The notes beneath the pieces are model-generated. The model saw only the letters and a program-made list of their open reading frames with translations. It searched no databases and had not been told where the DNA came from. Of a stretch of 64,000 nt of DNA, positions 25,089-64,000 are shown one piece after another (positions within the stretch are counted from its first letter, which is position 1; each line of letters begins with the position of its first letter). Source of the stretch: an uncultured Nitrospira sp. (lineage in GTDB: Bacteria > Nitrospirota > Nitrospiria > Nitrospirales > Nitrospiraceae); the NCBI GenBank assembly GCA_902500715.1, contig CABVRO010000004.1, forward strand, positions 1 to 64,000, in the 5' to 3' direction. The translations under genes were made by a program, and so were the position numbers.

Positions 25089-25277
25089 ATGCACTGCCTG
25101 AAATGCAAAGGATTCATGATGGTGGAGCGGCATTACACACTCATGAATCGGCGGCTGTATGCCCGCTGCCTGAATTGCGGATTCTGGATCGACCTCGCCG
25201 ATTTGCTCCGATTTTTTCATAAGGTGATCTCCAGTAGCCTGCGTGGCACGAAGGTGCGAGAAACCTATACCCTGTGA
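25089..25277 (+). CDS. Tiny zinc-ribbon protein, 62 residues
   Basis: The protein has two CxxC pairs, C3/C6 and C27/C30, spaced as in a zinc ribbon, with MHCLKCKGFMMVERHY first and CLNCGFW second. The C-terminal part is amphipathic (IDLADLLRFFHKV). It shares CxKC(K/R)GxMxxER and CLNCG with the 50-residue gene at 63.8-64.0 kb, so both belong to one family. Role unknown; DNA, RNA or protein binding is possible. Confidence 0.62.
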   Translation: MHCLKCKGFMMVERHYTLMNRRLYARCLNCGFWIDLADLLRFFHKVISSSLRGTKVRETYTL

Positions 25278-26406: not shown

Positions 26407-26937
26407 TTAGCGGGGGAGTGAAAACTCCACATTCACATCTTTCCCGAGATAATTGACCTGGAAGCCCTGCTTGTCATAGGCGAGCAGGGCGCCCATCACA
26501 TTTTCATCGCCGTAATCCTCTTTGCCGAGCAACTTGCGCACATCATCCGGACTCTCGCTGTTGAGGACATTGCGAAAAATTCCGCGGGTTTTATAGGCAA
26601 AGCGGTTGTTGATGAAAATGAGATCGACCTTTCCGTCCTGTACCCTGACCCCGGCCATCGGGCCGGTCGGTTTACGTTGATCGAGCAGAAAAATAAATGT
26701 CGCCTCCTGCTCGGCCTTGATGCCGGGAATCTTTTCGTTCACCAGCCCATCCAGCGCCTTTCCTTCGTCGTCCCCCAGCTTGATCCCGAAGAGGGACACG
26801 TCCTGACTTGCAATCCCCTTGGGGTCGGTCAAGTCGTCCTTGCTGAGTTCATAAGGTCCGGCGCTCACCATGGCAGCGAGGTACAGGGATCCCATCATCG
26901 CCGTTAAGGCTGTGAACGCCCACTTCCGCTGCATCAT
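26407..26937 (-). CDS. Exported hypothetical protein, 176 residues
   Basis: The N terminus is a clear signal peptide (MMQRKWAFTALTAMMGSLYLAAMVSAG), so the mature protein is periplasmic. The start has AAGGAGG six bases upstream. The mature part is alpha/beta without Cys and includes DVSLFGIKLGDDEGKALDGL and LLGKEDYGDENVMGALLAYD, the sort of repeated short units seen in stress or envelope proteins. I recognise no family. It stands between a DacF gene and a LysR gene, convergent with the former. Confidence 0.75.
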   Translation of the reverse strand: MMQRKWAFTALTAMMGSLYLAAMVSAGPYELSKDDLTDPKGIASQDVSLFGIKLGDDEGKALDGLVNEKIPGIKAEQEATFIFLLDQRKPTGPMAGVRVQDGKVDLIFINNRFAYKTRGIFRNVLNSESPDDVRKLLGKEDYGDENVMGALLAYDKQGFQVNYLGKDVNVEFSLPR

Positions 26938-37582: not shown

Positions 37583-37659
37583 GCGCCCGTAGCTCAATTG
37601 GATAGAGCATCGGACTTCGGATCCGAGGGTTGGGGGTTCAAGTCCCTCCGGGCGCACCA
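37583..37659 (+). tRNA. tRNA-Arg (anticodon UCG)
   Basis: The seven-pair acceptor stem GCGCCCG/CGGGCGC, D arm, anticodon stem TCGGA/TCCGA with loop CTTCGGA (anticodon TCG), T arm GGGGG-TTCAAGT-CCCTC and encoded ACCA form a complete cloverleaf of 77 bases. It reads CGA and probably CGG arginine codons. Confidence 0.95.
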
Positions 37660-46151: not shown

Positions 46152-46295
46152 ATGGTCTATTGTCCAATGTGTTCAGGTGAGGCCAAGCGGGTGTCCCGTC
46201 ATGGTTGGCGGGATTTTTTTATGCATCTCATCGGGTTCTATCCATTTCGCTGCACCATTTGCGTCTACCGGTTTCGTCTCCGCCGTCGAACCTAG
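46152..46295 (+). CDS. Tiny zinc-ribbon protein, 47 residues (first of a pair)
   Basis: The sequence starts MVYCPMCSGEAKRVSRHGW and continues through DFFMHLIGFYPFRCTICVYR to a basic end. C4/C7 and C34/C37 form two CxxC pairs. It shares 26 of 47 residues with the gene at 46514, including CxxCSG, DFF, LIG, YPFRC and the basic tail. GCCGGG/CCCGGC just after the stop could form a hairpin. No strong ribosome site. Role unknown. Confidence 0.6.
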   Translation: MVYCPMCSGEAKRVSRHGWRDFFMHLIGFYPFRCTICVYRFRLRRRT

Positions 46296-46513: not shown

Positions 46514-46657
46514 ATGTCGTATTGCGGCAAATGTTCAGGATATACGAAGCGTTCCCGCCGCCAAGGCTTGCTGGACTTTTTCTTCTTCCTGATCGGCTAC
46601 TATCCCTTTCGGTGCTTGCGCTGCGGCCGTCGAACCCATCTCCGCCAGCGGATCTGA
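46514..46657 (+). CDS. Tiny zinc-ribbon protein, 47 residues (second of a pair)
   Basis: MSYCGKCSGYTKRSRRQG starts the protein; C4/C7 and C34/C37 (RCLRCGRR) form the zinc site around a hydrophobic centre (LLDFFFFLIGYYPF). It is a paralogue of the gene 219 bases upstream, equal in length to the residue. The hydrophobic middle and basic ends could place it at a membrane or RNA surface. Unknown function. Confidence 0.62.
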   Translation: MSYCGKCSGYTKRSRRQGLLDFFFFLIGYYPFRCLRCGRRTHLRQRI

Positions 46658-63818: not shown

Positions 63819-63971
63819 TTAATGTCGTGACGTGATCGGTCTCGGTTCTGCGTCAGCTGCTTTTCGTCGGCCACAGTTGAGGCACGCAAGGACTGTGATC
63901 GCCAAGCCAGCATTCAGGTCAACCGCCCGTTCCGGCAACATTGTTCCGCGGCATTTGTCACATTTATGCAT
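63819..63971 (-). CDS. Tiny zinc-ribbon protein, 50 residues
   Basis: On the minus strand, MHKCDKCRGTMLPERAV starts the protein; C4/C7 and C30/C33 (ACLNCGRR) form two CxxC pairs. It shares the CxKC(K/R)GxMxxER and CLNCG words with the 62-residue gene at 25.1-25.3 kb. AGGA lies very close to the start. The basic middle and end could bind nucleic acid. Function unknown. Confidence 0.6.
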   Translation of the reverse strand: MHKCDKCRGTMLPERAVDLNAGLAITVLACLNCGRRKAADAEPRPITSRH

Positions 63972-64000
63972 TCCTGGCTTATAACATTGCGCTGTAGGAT

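Follow-up and report, generated by a model that had tools for sequence, protein, structure and literature searches.

What are four very small open reading frames (ORFs) in a Nitrospira genome, each encoding two CxxC pairs, and do they form a single family with a single role? The question arises from a stretch of 64,000 nucleotides (the window) belonging to a metagenome-assembled genome (MAG) of 3.66 Mb in 241 contigs. Among the 385 window ORFs of 35–80 residues, four encode two CxxC pairs 8–40 residues apart, whereas 20 random first-order sequences of window length contained 0.2 such ORFs on average and at most one. An ORF scan and the translations place these four, here named P25, P46a, P46b and P63, and their motifs where the original prediction had put them (Table 1).

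Table 1. Positions of the four small genes and of associated features in the window
Feature	Position	Strand	Basis
Gene of a putative lipoprotein with FG-GAP repeats, always upstream of P25	23346..24668	+	PF13517, E 3e-47
TM66, 66-aa hydrophobic membrane-type ORF between FG-GAP gene and P25	24809..25009	+	synteny
P25, 62-aa two-CxxC zinc-ribbon-type protein (CLKCKGFMMVERHY...ARCLNCGFWIDLADLLRFFHKV...)	25089..25277	+	orthologues, kept Cys, pN/pS
D-alanyl-D-alanine carboxypeptidase (peptidase S11; dacC), directly 3′ of P25	25323..26252	+	PF00768, E 1e-52
P46a, 47-aa two-CxxC protein, YPFRC type	46152..46295	+	synteny, kept Cys, pN/pS
P46b, 47-aa two-CxxC protein, YPFRC type	46514..46657	+	genus matches, pN/pS
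dapB, convergent neighbour of P63	62702..63505	+	PF01113 and PF05173
P63, 50-aa two-CxxC zinc-ribbon-type protein (CDKCRGTMLPER...ACLNCGRR)	63819..63971	-	orthologues, pN/pS
Extended -10 element of P63 (TGTTATAAG), 6 nt before ATG	63978..63986	-	TGnTA conservation

The conservation of the CxxC codons between strains, proposed at the outset as a check, was examined in gap-free alignments of distinct coding sequences with an identity of at least 55% (P25, P63) or at least 75% (P46 pair), sets from which remote paralogues are absent. All four cysteines are kept throughout, i.e. in 128/128 sequences for P25, 90/90 for P63, and 28/28 each for P46a and P46b. Both TGC and TGT are used at every one of these positions in each of the four genes, and this exchange at kept cysteines indicates that selection acts on the protein. 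In the genus, to which Candidatus Nitrospira defluvii (FP929003.1) belongs, pN/pS amounts to 0.037 for P25, 0.026 for P63, and 0.064 for P46b; P46a shows 0.144, and 0.155 in a comparison with its neighbour genes, which have similar values. Mean identity to the window protein is 99.1% for P63 (28 genomes) vs. 95.2% for the neighbouring dapB, and 97.2% for P25 (27 genomes) vs. 92.2% for dacC and 91.4% for the FG-GAP gene. The P46 pair reaches 88.9% and 93.2%, compared to 84.2% and 84.3% for the neighbours msrA and a ttcA-like gene. All four are protein-coding genes under strong purifying selection. That they might be chance ORFs without a product, for which their short length and nothing else would speak, is as good as eliminated by pN/pS values of 0.026–0.144, the retention of all cysteines in every distinct coding sequence examined, and the fixed synteny. 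As gene finders in common use take ORFs from about 90 nt upwards, the earlier remark that most of these genes are below the usual gene-calling size is probably wrong. A mobile or viral origin was also considered and dropped: pattern matches in viral contigs included no encoded relative (0/37 for P63, 0/49 for P25, and 0/49 for P46), and a plasmid search with P25, the sole protein searched there, gave no match. It should be noted that synonymous differences are few in P63 (pS 0.246 vs. 0.604 in dapB). Such variation is lowest over roughly the first 20 codons of the gene, which would suit a constraint on the 5′ end of the mRNA itself.

The two predicted subtypes are readily recognized, with CxKC(K/R)GxMxxER...C(L/I)NCG in P25 and P63 and the YPFRC type in the 46-kb pair. 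P25 and P63 are members of the same multi-copy lineage, denoted type 1, with CxxCxGxMxxER...CxNCG as shared motif. Paralogues that align with them include MECPKCKGMMMLER... and MTCGRCKGLMVDEW..., and nine positions are invariant over eleven type 1 sequences (the first Met, the four Cys, G8, E13, N29, and G31). A type 1 superfamily profile provided 11 matches in the own genome at E ≤ 0.05 and, at E ≤ 0.05 per genome, 7–24 matches in each of the 29/29 genus genomes. The pattern CxxCxGxxxxER occurs at 8 places in the own genome vs. 3 for the reversed control, and three of these places are true family members on inspection. P25 and P63 have different C-termini, and their genes are unlike in context and promoter layout. 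In view of the number of profile matches per genome, the idea of a sizeable genome-wide family is right for type 1, albeit not for the four proteins as one family. A single shared role is not supported either: the subtypes differ in distribution and probably in descent, with P25 and P63 occurring order-wide and the 46-kb pair restricted to the genus at the strong level.

Within the family, P25 orthologues were found in 142 of 147 genomes at E ≤ 1e-27 (143 at E ≤ 1e-4) and P63 orthologues in 136 at E ≤ 1e-18 (142 at E ≤ 0.01); in the genus, P63 is present in 29/29 genomes with 94–100% identity. A phylum sample of 295 genomes revealed P25 in 79/79 members of the same family, in 18/18 genomes of the sister family f2 (17 strong, one at 5.5e-6), and in 1/1 of the sister family f3. 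The corresponding values for P63 are 79/79 (one weak), 8/18, and 1/1, and the ten f2 genomes without P63 all belong to a single genus. Outside the order, five of 197 genomes matched P25 (all weak, 1.6e-7 to 9.7e-6) and three matched P63 (weak). When named genomes were scanned with the P25 profile, 79 of the best 80 of 156 relatives were titled Nitrospira, Nitrospiraceae, Nitrospirae or Nitrospirota; the remaining one is titled Nitrosospira, probably a label slip. Orthologues of P25 and P63 are confined to one order, Nitrospirales, and they are near-universal inside the family. Single absences mean little, as many of the genomes are incomplete MAGs. This bacterial order carries a multi-copy lineage of the small zinc-finger kind, two members of which are found in almost every genome of the family. 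The conservation extends well into the proteins: 30 of the 62 columns of P25 are invariant among 20 family sequences, and 23 columns of P63 among 18 sequences. The invariant non-Cys positions of P25 (R14, Y16, T17, R21, R22, R26, W33, and D35 to H44) imply a conserved partner rather than a metal site alone.

Searches of Pfam and NCBIfam gave no model above cut-off for any of the four proteins. For 52 P25 homologues the best Pfam match (E 0.038) was below the gathering cut-off, the P25 profile found no PDB sequence at E ≤ 0.1, and for the type 1 proteins the Pfam, NCBIfam and PDB sequence searches all ended without a convincing match or one above cut-off. Although P25 and P63 surpass the housekeeping genes beside them in conservation, none of the models in Pfam or NCBIfam matches them above cut-off. 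These genes likewise did not turn up in literature listings on Nitrospira zinc ribbons or small proteins, signature proteins, leaderless genes, and PilZ ribbons.

At the level of motifs, the closest comparison is with the CPxCG-related small zinc-finger proteins, defined in the available text of PMC2253796 as having fewer than 100 residues and two Cys/His pair patterns 7–40 residues apart, at least one of which is CPxCG-like. All four proteins show these three sequence features: they comprise 62 (P25), 47 (P46a), 47 (P46b), and 50 residues (P63), the pairs are separated by 20 (P25), 22 (P63), or 26 residues (P46a, P46b), and the CPxCG-like element is CLNCG in P25 and P63, CPMCS in P46a, and CLRCG in P46b. 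Judged by these features, the four are new families of a known kind. What is unusual is the degree and breadth of P25 and P63 conservation, and the promoter geometry of P63 (see below). The haloarchaeal class (Brz of Halobacterium; HVO_0758 and other μ-proteins of Haloferax), as far as the available text describes it, likewise has many members per genome and is lineage-restricted (PMC2253796, PMC10716476, PMC6562870, PMC11241148). By contrast, the members described here are bacterial, limited to one order, and basic, the likeness being one of motifs, and the orthologues of P25 and P63 are 66–100% and 67–100% identical across the family, respectively. According to the same available texts, small zinc-finger proteins make up 8% of archaeal small proteins and are rarer in bacteria (1.5%), and the founding member Brz regulates transcription, bop transcription being impaired when either the gene or a residue of the motif is lost (PMC2253796). 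Moreover, of 16 Haloferax mutants deleted for such a gene, 12 are described there as having a phenotype (PMC6562870).

Structure models were obtained for both type 1 proteins. The P25 model, based on 52 aligned sequences, is weak (pLDDT 60.6, pTM 0.36) and contains strands at 9–17 and 20–27 and a helix at 36–51; the P63 model was built from the single sequence without an alignment (pLDDT 74.4, pTM 0.48). Both contain strands fitting a ribbon, and Rpb9/TFIIS-type ribbons as well as ZifS are found among the PDB matches of each model independently. The Rpb9-type chain I of 5flm ranks first in Foldseek for P63 (E 0.071, probability 1.00, TM 0.59 over 41 columns) and for P25 (E 0.46). The predicted strands and knuckles resemble those of Rpb9/TFIIS ribbons, but neither model has a Foldseek match at E ≤ 0.001, and the PDB sequence search with P25 was negative as noted above. 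To our knowledge, Rpb9 is absent from bacteria. ZifS (TTHA0897, Thermus thermophilus, PDB 8yoz) is likewise a small bacterial zinc-finger protein and ranks 4 for P25 and 22 for P63, at Foldseek E-values of 0.67 and 0.76 only. The model matches fit a zinc ribbon, and they do not prove kinship.

We tentatively favour, at somewhat short of an even chance, the reading that P25 and P63 are small regulators, i.e. basic single-zinc ribbons contacting nucleic acid or a nucleic-acid machine. The four genes would encode stand-alone, basic ribbons, with a single zinc coordinated by both CxxC knuckles in a fold of the Rpb9/TFIIS class. The basic surface, together with the conserved C-terminal helix DLADLLRFFHKV in P25, would contact nucleic acid or a machine bound to it (RNA polymerase or the ribosome, for example), making each protein a small regulator comparable to haloarchaeal Brz. 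Zinc, ribbon, and regulatory contact are suggested by the basic charge (pI 9.2–10.6; charge at pH 7 of +6.7 for P25, +3.6 for P63, +7.6 for P46a, and +9.5 for P46b), the invariant non-Cys positions of P25, and the behaviour of Brz. Zinc binding is accordingly a prediction for all four; in the available text of PMC11241148, five of 14 comparable haloarchaeal small proteins tested were zinc-free. The modest quality of the two models and the absence of Foldseek matches at E ≤ 0.001 weigh against a regulatory role, and P63 is only moderately basic. In addition, zinc ribbons also serve as protein–protein adaptors, and the envelope genes beside P25 suit such an adaptor about equally well.

The surroundings of P25 are highly regular. 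In Nitrospiraceae the order is FG-GAP lipoprotein, TM66 (without a Pfam family), P25, carboxypeptidase, and a convergent ORF: the FG-GAP gene lies upstream of P25 in 99/99 loci with room on the contig, TM66 lies between the two in 96/101, and the carboxypeptidase gene follows in 98/100. The sister families f2 and f3 retain the FG-GAP gene in 12/12 loci, TM66 in 6/12, and the carboxypeptidase in 1/11, which identifies the FG-GAP gene as the lasting partner of P25. With this fixed neighbourhood, P25 could be a cytoplasmic protein–protein adaptor of an envelope complex that joins TM66 and the exported neighbours to a cytoplasmic partner without any contact to nucleic acid, and its helix would belong to a kind that frequently packs against proteins. 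However, the sister families keep P25 while mostly dispensing with the carboxypeptidase and half of the time with TM66. Moreover, the FG-GAP protein has a lipoprotein-like signal and should reside outside the cytoplasm; as P25 carries no signal, it cannot directly reach this partner. We regard the adaptor as less likely than a regulator. Under the preferred regulatory reading, P25 would probably be made from the transcript of the envelope group (FG-GAP lipoprotein, TM66, carboxypeptidase) and would tune this cell-envelope gene group or a linked envelope function. The convergent 176-aa ORF (26407–26937, minus strand) has a signal-peptide-like start, matched no Pfam family, and faces the carboxypeptidase gene in 94/98 Nitrospiraceae loci. 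With a genus mean identity of 97.4% and a pN/pS of 0.026 it is equally conserved, and P25 is thus not unique in its conservation near its locus.

The second type is represented by P46a and P46b, a tandem pair specific to the genus. P46a lies upstream of P46b in 28/28 loci, P46b is present at an identity of at least 81% in 28/29 genus genomes, and the two co-occur in these 28, the remaining genome lacking both at that search level. The P46 profile is strong (better than 1e-24) in the genus only, i.e. in 17/17 sampled genus genomes, and at E ≤ 1e-5 it matched 68 of the 295 genomes of the phylum sample. Relatives carry the motif RRxG...GxYPxRCxxC either as a stand-alone protein or at the N-terminus of proteins of about 160 residues, and PilZ was above the Pfam cut-off in 5/5 of the ribbon-bearing 160-residue proteins tested (E 3e-8 to 1e-15). 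These Nitrospiraceae fusions of an N-terminal zinc ribbon to PilZ represent a possible c-di-GMP-linked class. P46a and P46b share the YPFRCxxC ribbon with them, and might be stand-alone ribbons of the PilZ type that share a target with the fusions and assist or compete with them in c-di-GMP signalling. We consider this doubtful: unlike the fusions, the two 47-residue proteins have no PilZ match, no c-di-GMP gene was noticed beside them, and the similarity is moderate (about 1e-6 to 1e-11 per genome, and only 0.06 for the fusion in the own genome), so that common descent of the two kinds of ribbon is not proven. Matches of the P46 profile in the PDB (best E 2.4e-4) cover just 12–20 residues of C2H2 fingers, which we read as a resemblance of motifs. 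The second knuckle of P46a weakly resembles FmdB-type zinc ribbons (TIGR02605, PF09723), with 16.6 bits, the best score among the four proteins, against a cut-off of 31.3 for TIGR02605, and 13.8 against 34.4 for the Pfam model.

A further alternative is that the proteins buffer zinc or thiols, or sense redox state, and are not regulators with a binding partner. Two CxxC pairs would suit such a function. A small, membrane-anchored ORF with a YHS domain (PF04945), putatively metal-binding, adjoins the P63 promoter in divergent orientation in 21/29 loci examined, which would also agree with a buffer or sensor. This reading nevertheless appears improbable: selection acts over the full length of P25 and P63, as the invariant columns show, and a buffer would not need such conservation beyond the cysteines.

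Turning to P63, its promoter was analysed in 90 Nitrospiraceae upstream regions with at least 130 nt available. TGnTA is found within 24 nt of the start in 90/90 regions (shuffled mean 8.0), as opposed to 1/50, 0/31, and 1/31 loci for P25, P46a, and P46b, respectively. The -10 hexamer ends 6 nt before ATG in 65/90 regions and 5–10 nt before it in 90/90. The transcript should therefore start at or beside the start codon, and the P63 mRNA is predicted to be leaderless. A second element, ACTTCnGnnnGAT, is present in 67/90 regions (shuffled 0.02); in this genome it lies just beyond the window end (position 64000). Its (A/G)CTT(C/T) core (ACTTY) starts exactly 32 nt before TGnTA in 82/90 regions. 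Class II activator sites of bacterial promoters are located near -41, and the spacing of the core places it at this position. Within the regulatory reading, P63 would be made from its own activator-type leaderless promoter and answer a separate signal. The gene dapB is convergent with P63 in 46/48 Nitrospiraceae loci with room, and in 0/7 sister-family loci.

A more specific proposal, which we view as a long shot, is that P25 and P63 are Nitrospirales-specific core factors docking on RNA polymerase or the ribosome via an Rpb9/TFIIS-like ribbon. A common docking surface would explain why both change more slowly than the neighbouring housekeeping genes. As accessory subunits, they would be specific to the lineage comprising the main nitrite oxidisers, and a conserved activator would drive P63 from a leaderless promoter. 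Nitrospira-type bacteria account for much of the world's nitrite oxidation and for all known comammox. If P25 and P63 are regulators, they would be part of the basic control apparatus of these nitrite-oxidising and comammox bacteria, and the fixed pairing of the FG-GAP gene with P25 and the rigid P63 promoter provide experimental handles.

The region upstream of P63 first looked like a hairpin with covarying arms. RNAalifold gave zero consensus pairs for 50 P63 upstream sequences, Rfam had no match upstream of P63, and the spacing to the -10 element is rigid; an RNA element was rejected on these grounds, and the upstream blocks are read as promoter DNA. The alignment was sequence-based, and a little room is left for weak RNA structure. 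At the gathering threshold, Rfam matched a single feature of the window, a tRNA gene at 37583–37656 (plus strand). The window holds no second copy of the P63 operator. Further conserved blocks upstream of P63 read CAAAnGGCC and, as a near-inverse, GGnCCTTT; at a guess, they may be more sites of the same putative protein.
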